DNA of 36,967 nucleotides from NCBI RefSeq assembly GCF_000970465.2, contig NZ_LAJE02000107.1:1-36967 (forward strand). Direction: 5' to 3'. A program made the translations under genes and the position numbers. Source of the DNA: Devosia insulae DS-56. GTDB taxonomy: Bacteria > Pseudomonadota > Alphaproteobacteria > Rhizobiales > Devosiaceae. The notes below the pieces were generated by a model. The model was not told the DNA's origin. It did no database searches and saw only the letters and a program-made list of their open reading frames with translations. Shown here piece by piece: positions 11,408-17,655 of this stretch (its first letter is position 1; each line of letters begins with the position of its first letter).

Positions 11408-12250
11408 TCAGATCATCTCCAGCGCCTGCTTGCGGCGTGGCGGTGGGAAGGCGGCGTCGAGGGCGGCCTGTTCTTCGGCGGTCAGCGAGAGATCAGCTGC
11501 CGCGCGGTTCTCGGCGACGTGGTCGAGGCCGGTGGCCTTGGGGATGGCGATGACGCCGGGGCGAGCCAGCACGAAGGCGAGGGCGACCTGGGCGGCAGTG
11601 ACGCCGCGGGCATTGGCGATGCGCTGCAGCGACGGGTGGCGGAGCATGCGGTTGTCGTTGCCGAGCGGCGAGTAGGCCATGATCGGCATGGCGTGCTCGG
11701 CAGACCACGCCAGCAGGTCGTACTCGATGCCGCGGGCGGTGAGGTTGTAGAGCACCTGGTTGGTGGCGCAGGCCTTGCCCCCGGGGACGGCGAGCAGCTC
11801 TTCCATATCGTCGACATCGAAGTTGGAAACACCCCAGGCACCGATGGCGCCGGAGCGCTGCAGGGTTTCGAAGGCATCGACGGTTTCGGCGAGCGGGTGC
11901 CGGCCGCGCCAGTGCAGCAGATAGAGCTCAATATGGTTGGTGCCGAGGCGCTTCAGGCTCCGCTCGCAGGCGGCGATGGTGCCGCTTCGGCTGGCATTAT
12001 GGGGCAACACCTTGCTGACCAGTTGTACCTCGTTGCGGTGGCCTTTGATGGCTTCGGCGATCACCTGCTCGGCACCACCATCGCCGTACATCTCGGCGGT
12101 ATCGAGCAGCGTCATGCCCAGCTCAATGCCGCGGCGCAGCGCCGTGACCTCGTCGGCGTGGCGGCGGCGATCCTCGCCCATGCGCCAGGTGCCTTGGCCG
12201 AGCGAGGGCACGGATATGCCGGAGGGAAGGGCGACGGTGGGAAGAGTCAT
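11408..12250 (-). CDS. Aldo/keto reductase
   Basis: An NADPH-dependent oxidoreductase of the AKR superfamily, 280 residues. The tetrad is visible: D50 and Y55 in [12 protein letters not shown]80 in LVSKVLP and H113 in LYLLHWRG. The family segments GAWGVSNFD and the cofactor-binding [15 protein letters not shown] follow. The substrate cannot be told from the sequence. I chose the ATG at 12250 ([11 protein letters not shown]) because it starts the conserved domain directly; a longer frame upstream runs through the small-RNA terminator at 12320-12351. Confidence 0.9.
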
Positions 12251-12311
12251 GAGCGGCCTCGCGTTATGAGAGCAGCCTAGCGTGGCCGGCGCGAGGGGCA
12301 ACCGGAGGGCC

Positions 12312-12422
12312 AAAAGAAAAAGGCTCCGCTCGAGGGGATGAGCGGAGCCTTCAGAGGCCGGCTCGCCGAAGCGGGCGACCCATCGAAGCGCAGCCAGGGA
12401 GGAGGAGCGGCTGCAATTCGTT
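12312..12422 (-). ncRNA. Anti-Shine-Dalgarno small RNA, unit 3
   Basis: The unit is about 110 nt on the minus strand. It has a candidate promoter (TTGTTC 12457-12452, 17 bases, GATAGT 12434-12429), a hairpin GCAGCC/GGCTGC (12414-12390) whose loop is GCTCCTCCTCCCT, a second hairpin with TCGCC/GGCGA arms, and a terminator (12320-12351). The loop is complementary to the Shine-Dalgarno sequence. This matches the architecture of the alphaproteobacterial CCUCCUCCC small RNAs (cuckoo/CcsR, suhB and ar14 types). Ends are estimated. Confidence 0.7.
12320..12351 (-). terminator. Terminator of small RNA unit 3
   Basis: AAGGCTCCGCTC (12320-12331) pairs with GAGCGGAGCCTT (12340-12351). On the minus strand it is followed by TTTTTCTTTT. 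Confidence 0.88.
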
Positions 12423-12524
12423 GAGATGACTATCGGGTGATGCGGCGAACGGAACAATCGCCAAGTCGGAACGTCAGCCATGCGCTGGGCGCGAGGCGAC
12501 CGGGCCACAAAGATCAGCCAAAGC

Positions 12525-12718
12525 AAAAAAAGAGGCCCCATCCGAAGATGGGGCCCAATGAAAAGGACCGAAGTCCAAATCTAAAGTGGTGGCAAATGGA
12601 CGAGGGAGGAGGATACGCCATTTGCCGATGGCCCTAAGTCGAGGGAGGAGGATACGACTTCGGACCGGTGTCGCAGAGCAGGACCGAGGGAGGAGGATAC
12701 GGTGCGGCTCACATCGAC
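12525..12718 (-). ncRNA. Anti-Shine-Dalgarno small RNA, unit 2, with three identical loops
   Basis: The unit is about 194 nt. The candidate promoter is TTGTGG (12753-12748), 17 bases, CATATT (12730-12725). Three hairpins follow in order on the minus strand, each showing the same loop TATCCTCCTCCCT: stem ACCG/CGGT (12703-12683), stem AAGTCG/CGACTT (12660-12636) and a 9-pair stem GGCAAATGG/CCATTTGCC (12626-12591). The stems differ in sequence while the loops are identical, a pattern expected of a selected RNA. A terminator closes it at 12534-12555. A protein-coding reading on the plus strand is not supported because all three terminators in this cluster face the minus direction. Confidence 0.75.
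12534..12555 (-). terminator. Terminator of small RNA unit 2
   Basis: GGCCCCATC (12534-12542) pairs with GATGGGGCC (12547-12555) around CGAA. The minus strand continues TCTTTTTTT. Confidence 0.9.
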
Positions 12719-12724
12719 AGTCAC

Positions 12725-12753
12725 AATATGCACTTTGACCGTTTGGTCCACAA
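12725..12753 (-). promoter_or_regulatory. Candidate promoter of small RNA unit 2
   Basis: TTGTGG (12753-12748), a 17-base spacer and CATATT (12730-12725), read on the minus strand, place the start near 12718, ahead of the first anti-Shine-Dalgarno hairpin. A 14-base perfect palindrome TGACGCATGCGTCA (12813-12826) lies 60 bases further upstream and could be an operator. Confidence 0.45.
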
Positions 12754-12871
12754 TGCGGAGTTCAACATGCCAGCTATGCAGTTTGCGCAGGCATAGGTCA
12801 GTCATGCTGCCGTGACGCATGCGTCAATCACCTGCCGCAGAGCAGCTGGTTTCGGACGTTCGTACGGGGAG

Positions 12872-12988
12872 AAAAAACAAGGCCCCGCTCGAGGGGAGAG
12901 CGGGGCCGAGTAGCAGCCGTTGCCGGCTACAGGGAGGAACAAACAACGAGCGCGAGGAGGAGGAGGGAGATGCGCTCAGCTGCTGTCG
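12872..12988 (-). ncRNA. Anti-Shine-Dalgarno small RNA, unit 1
   Basis: The unit is about 115 nt. On the minus strand GAGCGC/GCGCTC (12977-12948) closes a loop made almost entirely of CTCC repeats, followed by a single-stranded TTCCTCCCT, a GTAGCCG/CGGCTGCTAC hairpin with a GCAA-type loop, and a terminator at 12881-12907. Promoter at 12995-13023. Same design as units 2 and 3 but little sequence shared outside the loops and terminators. Confidence 0.7.
12881..12907 (-). terminator. Terminator of small RNA unit 1
   Basis: GGCCCCGCTC (12881-12890) pairs with GAGCGGGGCC (12898-12907). The minus strand then reads TTGTTTTTTC. The stem and its CGAGGGG-type loop resemble the terminator of unit 3. 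Confidence 0.88.
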
Positions 12989-12994
12989 AGCGGG

Positions 12995-13023
12995 GATATA
13001 TGGGGTGAGTGCCGACCCAGCAA
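12995..13023 (-). promoter_or_regulatory. Candidate heat-shock-type promoter of small RNA unit 1
   Basis: TTGCTG (13023-13018), 17 bases, TATATC (13000-12995). The -10 region read in full is CCCCATATA, which matches the sigma-32 (RpoH) -10 pattern CCCCATnTA, with 12 bases between TTGCTG and it. Published CcsR-type RNAs in Rhodobacter are under RpoH control, so this would be consistent. Predicted by eye. Confidence 0.5.
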
Positions 13024-13198
13024 CCGAGGAGTATCGAATGAGGGGCATGCGTTTTTCGCATGGCTGTTAAGTCGATGAGTTTGCTCGTGTATTGCGGTTT
13101 CCGGCGTGCGTCGTGGCGTCGCACGCCGATGTGATCGCGACGCCAAGTGCTTGATTGTGACGGTTTTTTGTCAGATTCGACGGGCGAATCCCTAGGGC
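13024..13198. other. Gap between corA and the small-RNA cluster with three hairpins
   Basis: No gene is visible. Three inverted repeats occur: CATGCG-TTTTT-CGCATG (13046-13062), CGGCGTGCG/CGCACGCCG (13102-13128) and GATTCG/CGAATC (13174-13190). The last lies 9 bases past the corA stop codon and may mark its 3' end, though no T-run follows on the minus strand. Confidence 0.4.
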
Positions 13199-14185
13199 TT
13201 AGAGCCAGCCGCTGCGTTTGAAGAAGGCGTAAGGGACGATGGCGGAGAGGACCATGAGCCCCAGCGCGAATGGATAGCCCAACGGCCAGCTTAGTTCGGG
13301 CATGAACTCGAAGTTCATGCCGTAGATCGAGGCGACGAGGGTGGGCGGCAGGAACACCACGGCGGCCACCGAGAAGATCTTGATGATCTGGTTCTGCTCG
13401 AGGTTGATCAGCCCAAGCGTCGCATCGAGGAGGAAAGTGATCTTGTCGGAGAGGAAGGCGGCGTGGTCGCTGAGCGCCGCGGCGTCGCGCTGCAGGGTCT
13501 TCAGGCCCTGACGCAGTTCCTTGGTGGCCTTCACGTCGGCGCTTCCCAGGGTCTGGTGGAAGCTGGTGAGCCGGGTGATCGAGACGAGACTCTCGCGAGC
13601 CAGGGTGAGGACATCGCCCTTCTTGCCGATGCGCTCGATCAGCGACTGCAGGTCGCGGGTCTTGCGGGTGGGCTTTTTGACCTTGTTGCCGAAGACCTCG
13701 CGCGAAATCTGGTCGATGCCGTCGCCGGTGTTCTCGAGCAGCTGCGCCAGACGGTCGATGAAGGATTCGAGCAGGCCGATCATCACGCGCTCGCCGCCGA
13801 GCTCGCCCGTGGTGGGACGGGAGACCAGGCGCTCGTAGAGGCGGAAGGGCTTTGGATCGGCATAGCGCACCGTCACCAGCTGGTCGTTGCGCAGGACGAA
13901 AGTGATCGGGGTTTTGACCACCTGACCGGCTTCATCCTCGATCAGCGCGGTGATGGTCATGAACTCCGCCCCTTCCTCGCTGTAGAGGCGGGCGGAAGGC
14001 TCGATGTCCTGCATCTCGCGGCGGGTGGGGATGTCGATGCCGAGGCAGGCCTCGACGAACTTATCCTCCTCGCGCGTCGGGTCGGTAAGCGAGTACCAGA
14101 CGGCGCCGGTCAGCTCAGTGCCGGCGGCGGGGTCGAAATCGGTGGGAGCGAGGCGGTCGCCTTCGCGGATATAGGCACGCAGCAT
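13199..14185 (-). CDS. corA: CorA family magnesium/divalent metal transporter
   Basis: An inner-membrane channel for Mg2+ (and Co2+ or Ni2+ in relatives). The 328-residue protein has the long cytoplasmic alpha/beta and helical domain, then two C-terminal membrane helices. The first helix ends in the signature YGMNFE (GMN at 289-291) and the loop MPELSW, which forms the selectivity filter; the protein ends with a basic KRSGWL tail. Length and layout match CorA. The start at 14185 (MLRAYIREGDRL) is the first of the frame. It stands alone, with small RNA genes downstream. Confidence 0.93.
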   Translation of the reverse strand: MLRAYIREGDRLAPTDFDPAAGTELTGAVWYSLTDPTREEDKFVEACLGIDIPTRREMQDIEPSARLYSEEGAEFMTITALIEDEAGQVVKTPITFVLRNDQLVTVRYADPKPFRLYERLVSRPTTGELGGERVMIGLLESFIDRLAQLLENTGDGIDQISREVFGNKVKKPTRKTRDLQSLIERIGKKGDVLTLARESLVSITRLTSFHQTLGSADVKATKELRQGLKTLQRDAAALSDHAAFLSDKITFLLDATLGLINLEQNQIIKIFSVAAVVFLPPTLVASIYGMNFEFMPELSWPLGYPFALGLMVLSAIVPYAFFKRSGWL

Positions 14186-15795: not shown

Positions 15796-16689
15796 CTAGA
15801 ACGACCACTCCCGGGCCTTGCCGACGAGGAAGTCGCGGAAGACGCCGACGCGCTTAGAGTTCTTCAGCGCCGGGGGATAGACAAAATAGGCTTCGTAGGC
15901 CGGCAGCTCGATGCCTTCGAGGACGCGCCGCAAGTTGGTTTCGCCCTCGGTGACATAGTCCGGCAGCATGGCGATGCCGATGCCGGCGCGGGCGGCCTGC
16001 ATCATGCCGTAGATGGCGTTGACCTTCATCGAAGCGCGGCGCGGCGAGGAATCCGGGCGGCCGAGCCGCTCGAGATAGTTGATGTCGCCGAGATAGGACG
16101 GCACCGGCTCGCCGAACGAGATGACGCGGTGCTTGTCGAGATCCTCGACCGCCTGCGGCTCGCCGAACTCCTGGAGGTACTGCTCCGAGGCGTAGAAGTG
16201 GTTGTGCACGGTGAACAGCTTGCGCTGGATCATCTCGGACTGGTTCGGCCGGTGCAGCCGGATGGCAACGTCGGCCTCGCGCATGGCGAGATCGAGTTCG
16301 GCGTCGTTGAGCTTAATCTCGATCTGGATTTCCGGATAAAGGATCAGGAACTCGTGGATGCGCGAGCTCAGCCAGGTCGAGCCTATACCCACTGTGGTGG
16401 TGACGAGCAGGGGGCCGGTGGGCACCTCCTGGCTCTCGGACATCTGGGTCTCGACCTGCTGCAGTTCCCAATGCATGCGGTGCGCGGTGCGGAACAGTTG
16501 CTCGCCCACCTCGGTGAGCACCAGGCCGCGGGCGTGGCGGATGAACAGCTTTAGCCCCAGATCCTCCTCGAGCGCTGAAATCTGCCGCGATACGGCAGAC
16601 TGGCTCATGTTGAGCTTTTCAGCGGCGTGGGTGAAGGACCCGGATTCGGCGGCGGTGTGGAAGATGCGGAGCTTGTCCCAATCCAGCAT
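15796..16689 (-). CDS. lsrB: LysR-type regulator, LsrB/VtlR type
   Basis: A DNA-binding regulator of 297 residues. It begins MLDWDKLRIFHTAAESGSFT, with the winged helix-turn-helix at about 18-60 (AAEKLNMSQSAVSRQISALE), then a periplasmic-binding-type effector domain. Both the opening sequence and the position 3 bases behind trxB match LsrB of Sinorhizobium and VtlR of Brucella, which control redox defence, envelope polysaccharide and a small RNA in those bacteria. The orthology claim rests on remembered sequence and gene order. Co-transcription with trxB is likely. Confidence 0.88.
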   Translation of the reverse strand: MLDWDKLRIFHTAAESGSFTHAAEKLNMSQSAVSRQISALEEDLGLKLFIRHARGLVLTEVGEQLFRTAHRMHWELQQVETQMSESQEVPTGPLLVTTTVGIGSTWLSSRIHEFLILYPEIQIEIKLNDAELDLAMREADVAIRLHRPNQSEMIQRKLFTVHNHFYASEQYLQEFGEPQAVEDLDKHRVISFGEPVPSYLGDINYLERLGRPDSSPRRASMKVNAIYGMMQAARAGIGIAMLPDYVTEGETNLRRVLEGIELPAYEAYFVYPPALKNSKRVGVFRDFLVGKAREWSF

Positions 16690-16692
16690 CGC

Positions 16693-17655
16693 CTATTCCG
16701 CCGCTTCTGCGAGCTCGAGCGATGCCAGATATTCCTCTGCGTCCAAGGCCGCCATGCACCCCATCCCTGCTGCCGTCACCGCCTGCCGGTAGATGTCGTC
16801 GGTGACATCGCCCGCGGCGAAGACGCCGGGGACGTTGGTGGCGGTGCTGCCCGGCTGCACTTCGAGATAGCCGCCCGGCTTCATGTCGAGCTTACCGGAA
16901 AAGATCGAGGTCGCCGGCGAGTGGCCGATGGCGATGAACACGCCGTCGACGGTCTTTTCGGTGACATGGCCGGTCTTAGTGTCGCGGATCTTCACCCCCT
17001 GAACCGAGCGCGGCATGTGCTGGCCGTAGACTTCCTCGATCTCGGCGTTCCAGATCACCTCGACCTTGGGGTTCTTGAACAGCCGCTGCTGCAGGATGCG
17101 CTCGGCGCGGAACTCGCCACGGCGGTGAACCACCGTGACCTTCGACGCGAAATTGGTGAGGAACAGCGCCTCCTCGACCGCGGTATTGCCGCCGCCGACG
17201 ACGATCACTTCCTTGCCGCGATAGAAGAAGCCATCGCAGGTGGCGCAGGCTGAGACACCAAAGCCCTGGAACTTTTCCTCGGATTCGAGGCCCAGCCAGC
17301 GCGCCTGCGCGCCGGTGGCGACGATCACCGCGTCGGCCGTGTAGCGCGTGCCGCCATCGCCGATGAGGACGAATGGGCGCTTGTCGAAATCCACCTCGAC
17401 GATGATGTCATTGATCATCTTGGTGCCGACATGCTCGGCCTGCGCCTTCATCTGCTCCATCAGCCAGGGGCCCTGGATGACGTCGGCGAAGCCGGGATAG
17501 TTCTCGACATCGGTGGTGATGGTGAGCTGGCCGCCCGGCTGGATGCCGGAGATCATGACGGGCTCGAGCATGGCGCGCGCCGCATAGATGGCCGCCGTGT
17601 AGCCGGCAGGACCCGATCCGATGATGACGACCTTGGCGTGCACCTTACGCTCCAC
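16693..17655 (-). CDS. trxB: Thioredoxin-disulfide reductase
   Basis: A cytoplasmic FAD enzyme that passes electrons from NADPH to thioredoxin. The 320-residue protein has the FAD site GSGPAG (13-18), the redox pair CATC (C137, C140) and the NADPH site GGGNTA (154-159), then HRR for the NADPH phosphate and the C-terminal FAD motif GVFAAGDVTDDIYRQ. The frame opens with GTG at 17655 (MERKVHAKVV). A second GTG at 17643 has a better ribosome site (GGAGCGTAAG), so the N terminus is uncertain by four residues. Promoter at 17696-17725; lsrB follows after 3 bases. Confidence 0.95.
   Translation of the reverse strand: MERKVHAKVVIIGSGPAGYTAAIYAARAMLEPVMISGIQPGGQLTITTDVENYPGFADVIQGPWLMEQMKAQAEHVGTKMINDIIVEVDFDKRPFVLIGDGGTRYTADAVIVATGAQARWLGLESEEKFQGFGVSACATCDGFFYRGKEVIVVGGGNTAVEEALFLTNFASKVTVVHRRGEFRAERILQQRLFKNPKVEVIWNAEIEEVYGQHMPRSVQGVKIRDTKTGHVTEKTVDGVFIAIGHSPATSIFSGKLDMKPGGYLEVQPGSTATNVPGVFAAGDVTDDIYRQAVTAAGMGCMAALDAEEYLASLELAEAAE

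Follow-up and report, generated by a model that had tools for sequence, protein, structure and literature searches.

The minus strand of a 36,967-nt stretch of Devosia insulae DS-56 (contig NZ_LAJE02000107.1, positions 1 to 36,967; hereafter the window) carries three predicted small RNAs (sRNAs), units A, B, and C, whose hairpins present C-rich anti-Shine-Dalgarno (aSD) loops downstream of the gene for the LysR-type regulator LsrB. The structure of the units, the covariation of their stems, promoters with the published LsrB box at units B and C, and the position after lsrB are all seen in the DNA. We consider it fairly probable that they form an LsrB-activated array of trans-acting aSD sRNAs, which would mainly repress ABC-type uptake genes and would correspond to the AbcR locus of rhizobia; in this reading, the expression of the units, the binding of LsrB, the pairing with targets, and their repression are predicted. 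It points to an sRNA regulon that spans a bacterial family, is tied to a named regulator, and is not annotated by Rfam in the 13 stretches scanned. In all family counts, the family is Devosiaceae (placement of Devosia according to NCBI taxonomy).

Structure of the array

Units A, B, and C are flanked by corA and an aldo/keto reductase gene on the minus strand (Table 1). The genome assembly comprises 5.75 Mb in 410 contigs, and the closest named relative of the CorA protein of the window is that of Devosia sp. Root413D1 (91%). The initial annotation had proposed three separate rho-independent terminators on the minus strand, and all three were found; the region from 11800 to 13600 contains 3 terminators, against a mean of 1.4 (sd 1.0) in shuffled sequences. 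The proposed loop counts of one, three, and one were confirmed as well, with a near form of the motif in unit A and exact CCTCCTCCC in units B (ends at 12688, 12643, and 12604) and C (12397). The pieces fold better than shuffles, with z-scores of -5.8 (unit A), -4.9 and -4.8 (two pieces of unit B), and -4.0 (unit C).

Table 1. Features of the sRNA array and the associated genes in the window.
Feature	Position	Strand	Details
Unit A promoter	12995..13023	minus	-35 TTGCTG 13023-13018; N17; -10 TATATC 13000-12995
Unit A sRNA, predicted	12873..12988	minus	~116 nt; 5' end assumed, 6 nt after the -10
Unit A hairpin	12988-12940	minus	aSD loop 12971-12954 (18 nt, near form CTCCCTCCTCCTCCTC)
Unit A linker aSD stretch	12939-12931	minus	TTCCTCCCT
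Unit A second hairpin	12930-12913	minus	
Unit A terminator	12907-12881	minus	C-rich loop
Unit B promoter	12725..12779	minus	LsrB box GCATAGCTGGCAT 12779-12767; -35 TTGTGG 12753-12748; N17; -10 CATATT 12730-12725
Unit B sRNA, predicted	12525..12718	minus	~194 nt
Unit B hairpins	12703-12683, 12666-12630, 12626-12591	minus	loop CCUCCUCCC in each
Unit B terminator	12556-12533	minus	UUCG loop
Unit C promoter	12429..12483	minus	LsrB box GCATGGCTGACGT 12483-12471; -35 TTGTTC 12457-12452; N17; -10 GATAGT 12434-12429
Unit C sRNA, predicted	12311..12422	minus	~112 nt
Unit C hairpin	12420-12384	minus	single CCUCCUCCC loop
Unit C small hairpin	12378-12363	minus	
Unit C terminator	12352-12319	minus	C-rich loop
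corA	13199..14185	minus	variable neighbour, outside the conserved core
lsrB (VtlR)	15796..16689	minus	LysR-type regulator, proposed activator of the array
trxB	16693..17655	minus	thioredoxin reductase, partner of lsrB

Over the whole window the motif shows no enrichment when one mismatch is permitted (17 sites versus 16.1 expected), and the exact 9-mer CCTCCTCCC is barely enriched genome-wide (44 sites versus 38 when the pattern is reversed). The remarkable feature is the clustering, with four exact copies in ∼300 bases (Poisson probability 8e-13 at the genome rate, for a stretch picked after the fact). A stem of at least 7 pairs together with a terminator-like hairpin within 180 bases was found at 3 of the 4 array sites and at 1 of the 40 other exact sites, this one (L148) having a weak terminator-like hairpin. 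The composite promoter described below is absent from all 40 exact CCTCCTCCC sites outside the array. Two further loci of the same genome (L121 and L127, on contigs C52 and C97) form hairpins of 7 and 14 pairs around exact CCTCCTCCC, with no terminator in view. In units A and C the loop of the terminator is a C-rich stretch (CCCCTCGAG) that hardly varies among the aligned relatives, and these loops are perhaps further pairing sites.

Covariation and conservation

Conserved loops on stems that differ but stay paired had been noted from the window, and the relatives agree, with compensatory changes in their stems. For unit B (alignment A1, 14 of 15 extracted sequences, L084 left out), 97.8% of cells are paired and two-sided changes occur in 22 of 40 pairs. 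None of 500 shuffles reached both values, and sliding the pairing partner destroyed them. Invariant columns make up 26/27 of the unit B loops versus 15/56 of the surrounding stems. Unit C (A2, 9 of 11 sequences; L084 and L085 left out, L091 trimmed to the second hairpin, none extracted from L004 or L090) has two-sided changes in 11 of 27 pairs at 95.4% paired, which 0/500 shuffles reached. In unit A (A3, 9 of 12 sequences; L083, L084, and L085 left out, none extracted from L089), two-sided changes affect 7 of 24 pairs, a count reached by 33/500 shuffles, and no shuffle among 500 reached its paired percentage of 91.1%. The number of further pair types was not above shuffles in unit C (reached by 479/500) or unit A (452/500). 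The loops are thus held while the stems drift yet stay paired. Cluster density, covariation, and conservation together rule out a chance origin of the array.

Promoters and the LsrB box

Candidate promoters with 17-base spacing had been assigned to the units. All three are present, but a strict sigma-70 scan found none of them, and their support is conservation. The LsrB/VtlR box is published as GCAT-N3-TG-N3-T (PMC7486931), and for PabcR1 it is reported at -61 to -49 together with CTTGAC-N17-CTATAT (PMC8844928). Units B and C each carry a perfect published box 26 bases before the TTG of the -35 element. The composite pattern of box and promoter has 2 perfect matches in the 5.75-Mb assembly, at units B and C only, and the reversed control has 0, a test not fully independent in this genome, as the spacing of 26 bases was initially derived from the same loci. 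Among the extracted copies, a perfect box at spacing 26 precedes 13/15 of unit B, 8/11 of unit C, and 1/12 of unit A. In the window the box of unit A is degenerate (GCATGCCCCTCAT from 13050, 5/7, at spacing 27 rather than 26), and before unit A of six relatives (L086, L088, L091, L092, L003, and L004) it matches 5-7 of 7 positions at spacing 26.

Across 136 family genomes, the composite pattern gave 295 matches in 121 genomes, versus 8 for the reversed pattern. Among the matches listed, 112 of 133 composite promoters (in the 51 genomes with a listed unit B) lie at most 1.5 kb from unit B on the same strand, 21 lie elsewhere, and a perfect composite promoter immediately precedes 72 of 96 unit B copies. 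A narrower pattern, GCATRGCWGNCAT-N2-16-GCATTG, matched once only, at unit B, and is uninformative. Some LsrB-box promoters, in the window (12753-12725) and in fetched loci, contain a dyad such as TGACC-N4-GGTCA between the -35 and -10 elements; half-sites of at least 5 occur in 19 of 103 distinct spacers from the fetched loci, versus 5.8 in shuffles. This dyad is perhaps the operator of a second regulator.

Distribution and genomic neighbourhood

A covariance model of unit B (E<=1e-4, with approximate E-values and, in some genera, weak matches that may represent other units) matches 121 of 136 family genomes, about a dozen of which supplied training rows, in 14 of 16 genera; it found no match in 15 of the 136. 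One genus, g25, has at least two unit B matches in 68/75 genomes. In an order-wide sample of 297 genomes at E<=1e-6, the model matches 28: the best scores all exceed 55 bits in the 13 that belong to the family and are 33-52 bits in the 15 others. The number of copies varies. In two arrays downstream of corA (L003 and L004) unit B is duplicated (A-B-B'-C) and the place of unit C lacks a CCUCCUCCC loop; where unit B is duplicated, the array can contain 7 exact copies of CCTCCTCCC (e.g. L190 and L191). In other families, L227, L230, L231, and L234 show 6 to 8 exact CCTCCTCCC within ∼300 bases.

In 18 of 20 hand-chosen family regions, the array is preceded by trxB and lsrB on its own strand; no lsrB occurs within the fetched stretches of the remaining two (L205 and L207). 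The gap between lsrB and the first unit is ∼110-390 bases in L196, L197, L198, L201, and L202. The initial annotation had placed the array beside corA, which is true of the window, but corA is not a constant neighbour. It separates lsrB from the array in L192, L199, L200, L001, L003, L004, and the window and was not detected there in other regions; among 22 downstream flanks of corA (up to 1300 bases; that of L087 ends early), the array was found within 1300 bases in 13 and not in 9. Since many regions showed no corA between lsrB and the array, it was dropped as a functional partner. The initial annotation missed the LsrB box and the AbcR-locus position of the array, and its statement that no DUF1127 gene adjoins it agrees with the 150 of 191 candidates scored, of which none on the contig (C107) matched. 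The genome has 6 DUF1127 matches in this set, none on a contig with exact CCTCCTCCC. The array is a real, selected, and family-wide set of predicted aSD sRNAs, under probable LsrB control.

LsrB and its signal

The LysR-type protein of the window aligns over its length with PDB 9HH1 (E 4.9e-110), which is LsrB of Agrobacterium (PMC11975290). An lsrB gene beside trxB is reported for Rhizobiales in the same source, and the window fits. The same paper describes Agrobacterium LsrB as a thiol switch with the pairs C144-C273 and C236-C244, in which the double substitution C144S/C273S behaves like a deletion (PMC11975290). The LsrB of the window contains zero cysteines. The 23 distinct LsrB sequences from Devosiaceae divide into 12 with no cysteine and 11 with a single one at residue 233, and three outgroup proteins (L223, L224, and L245) have none. 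In seven other LsrB rows, residue 140 is cysteine in 7/7 and residue 269 in 6/7, these residues being taken as C144 and C273 from a constant offset of four. Lacking the redox cysteine pair, LsrB here cannot use the published C144-C273 switch, and its input signal probably differs, being a small ligand or another cue and not a disulfide. What LsrB senses without a redox cysteine pair thereby becomes a testable question.

The lack of a thiol switch would also suit a different reading, in which the units are aSD regulators of the cuckoo/ar14 kind activated by a factor other than LsrB, and the GCAT box is the site of some other regulator. The promoter-spacer dyad, which may bind such a regulator, and the weak box of unit A point in the same direction. 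We regard this reading as unlikely: the box is the one published for LsrB and sits where it is reported to lie in PabcR1 (PMC8844928), its composite form is found only here in the genome, and lsrB adjoins the array in 18/20 regions.

Candidate targets and proposed mechanism

A whole-genome search for GGAGGAGG-N4-9-ATG returned 27 places, one of them antisense of unit A, versus 5 for the reversed control. An ORF of at least 100 aa begins at 12 of these places; L265 and L283, with ORFs that run off the stretch, are outside the 12. These candidate targets comprise 6 ABC solute-binding proteins, 1 ABC permease, 1 RbsD/FucU protein, 1 short-chain dehydrogenase, 1 DUF6636 protein, 1 weak ABM-like protein below the Pfam cut-off, and 1 without a family. 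The solute-binding share (6/12) has P 1e-5 if such proteins are 5% of genes and 5e-4 if they are 10%, both backgrounds being assumed. Genes for solute-binding proteins may simply have strong Shine-Dalgarno (SD) sequences. Published work reports that LsrB activates AbcR1 (PMC8844928) and, in S. meliloti, NfeR1 (PMC10746234), and that the tested or predicted targets of AbcR1 and NfeR1 are largely ABC-transporter mRNAs (PMC8844928, PMC10746234).

In the proposed mechanism, the nearby LsrB would switch on three independently transcribed, trans-acting sRNAs, each displaying at least one C-rich aSD loop on a sturdy stem. The loops would bind long GGAGGAGG(A)-type ribosome-binding sites by base pairing and so block translation, chiefly of genes for ABC-type nutrient uptake. 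Having multiple loops in an RNA and multiple RNAs in the array may provide redundancy and dosage. In Devosiaceae, the array would correspond to the AbcR locus of rhizobia, with an AbcR-like layout in unit A and an NfeR1/ar14-like one in unit B.

The loops of the array resemble the aSD sequence of 16S rRNA, and the array could instead be a general damper of translation that titrates SD sites broadly or competes with the 16S tail, with no defined targets. Any AGGAGG site gives 6-7 pairs with the loops, and the seven motifs of arrays with duplicated unit B would fit such a role. We give this idea little credence. In modelled duplexes with 13 leaders, the loops reach about -18 to -28 kcal/mol versus -12 to -19 kcal/mol for the 16S tail, a comparison in which the tail was a 15-nt sequence and the loops were longer than its core; moreover, the related NfeR1 is reported to have defined targets (PMC10746234).

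That the hairpins act as decoys and not as base-pairing regulators, attracting an RNA-binding protein such as Hfq or a DUF1127 protein like CcaF1, seems very improbable. CcsR RNAs are reported to be made together with the DUF1127 protein CcaF1 (PMC10253847), and 6 DUF1127 genes lie elsewhere in the genome, but no DUF1127 gene was found beside the array, the composite promoter occurs nowhere else in the genome, and the loop sequence complements SD sites. The basis of the analysis is sequence and the transcripts are predicted, so an untranscribed relic or repeat family may be imagined, to which covariation, family-wide retention, and conserved promoters leave a negligible chance. We retain LsrB-activated aSD sRNAs as the preferred reading.

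Comparison with known sRNA families

The array had been likened to the alphaproteobacterial CCUCCUCCC sRNAs (cuckoo/CcsR, suhB, and ar14). The kind is right, but neither the window nor 12 loci of relatives yielded a match at the gathering score of any Rfam family. Scores for ar14 (RF02344) are 45.9 bits in unit C, 34.4 in unit B, and 19.0 in unit A versus a gathering score of 58.8; CcsR1 scores 26.1 bits versus 65.3 and suhB (RF00519) 24.5 bits versus 41. Weak ar14 matches also occur at contigs C242 and C171, with no exact CCTCCTCCC there, and at contig C401. For ar15 (RF02345, gathering score 40) the array gives no match at E<=5, and the 10 Devosiaceae genomes searched give none at E<=0.01; one 21.8-bit match lies elsewhere in the genome (contig C219, E 0.085). 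The layout, which the initial annotation did not know as described, has no description among the titles and abstracts listed, and an earlier notice in the cuckoo and CcsR papers is possible. The closest published account is PMC3927594.

The suhB/mmgR type (RF00519) is likewise a short sRNA with an aSD loop and a terminator, and the array differs in scoring below the gathering threshold. CcsR1-4/CIN1 (RF02791) of Rhodobacter also have CCUCCUCCC loops in a tandem group. They differ in that each unit here has its own promoter and terminator and no DUF1127 gene is adjacent; as no DUF1127 gene was found on the contig among the 150 of 191 candidates scored, the DUF1127/CIN1 type was ruled out. The array carries an LsrB box versus the RpoHI/RpoHII promoter reported for R. 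sphaeroides (PMC10253847).

With the ar14/NfeR1 sRNAs (SmelA075/SmelA099 type, Sinorhizobium) the array shares several hairpins, identical CCUCCUCCC loops, and variable stems. The three-hairpin CCUCCUCCC design is found in unit B only, which adds a terminator hairpin: the RNA of the ar14 model terminates with its third aSD hairpin, whereas unit B has a separate fourth hairpin with a UUCG loop. A further difference is that the Devosiaceae units are arranged as an array after lsrB. NfeR1 is LsrB-activated in S. meliloti (PMC10746234), and box and geometry are present here at units B and C. The published distribution of ar14 names, in the text excerpted, Rhizobiaceae, Brucellaceae, and Phyllobacteriaceae, and not Devosiaceae (PMC7143759). 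In an Rfam scan of six loci from the 15 non-family genomes matched by the unit B model, L220, L227, L229, and L230 are ar14 over the cut-off, and L223 and L224 match no family. Unit B is thus kin of ar14 beyond the curated bounds of that family.

The likeness to ar15 (AbcR1-AbcR2) lies in sRNAs that follow lsrB in tandem on its strand (18/20 Devosiaceae regions), the same promoter geometry, and unit A, which consists of an aSD hairpin loop and a second aSD stretch in the linker. Here, by contrast, the loops of units B and C read CCUCCUCCC, and there are at least three unlike units versus two alike. As a control, 24 chosen genomes were searched for ar15, and 11 gave a match (9 over the cut-off), directly downstream of lsrB in 9 of the 11; in the exceptions, the three fetched matches of G420 and the three that were fetched of the five in G425 do not follow lsrB. 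Three distinct promoters from this control fit the composite pattern (L237/L249, L245, and L251/L258). In L223 (family f13), one RNA directly after lsrB scores 37.5 bits with ar15, below the cut-off, and 44.4 bits with unit B, and carries CCTCCTCCC. The unit A model finds the AbcR/ar15 or post-lsrB RNA in 22 of 25 sources, several of which overlap (E 6e-8 to 4e-3, 78 kb), and misses L223, L245, and L259; the unit B and C models find fewer of the 25. Because the unit A model also matches units B and C (19-50 bits), these results indicate kinship of class and not orthology of unit A and AbcR.

These comparisons link two sRNA families treated as separate, ar14 and ar15. We tentatively suggest, as a possibility on the doubtful side, that AbcR (ar15) and NfeR1/cuckoo (ar14) may descend from one LsrB-driven aSD array next to lsrB that stayed intact in Devosiaceae and was broken up in Rhizobiaceae, with an ancestral LsrB that responded to a non-thiol signal and a C144-C273 redox switch that arose later in the rhizobial branch.
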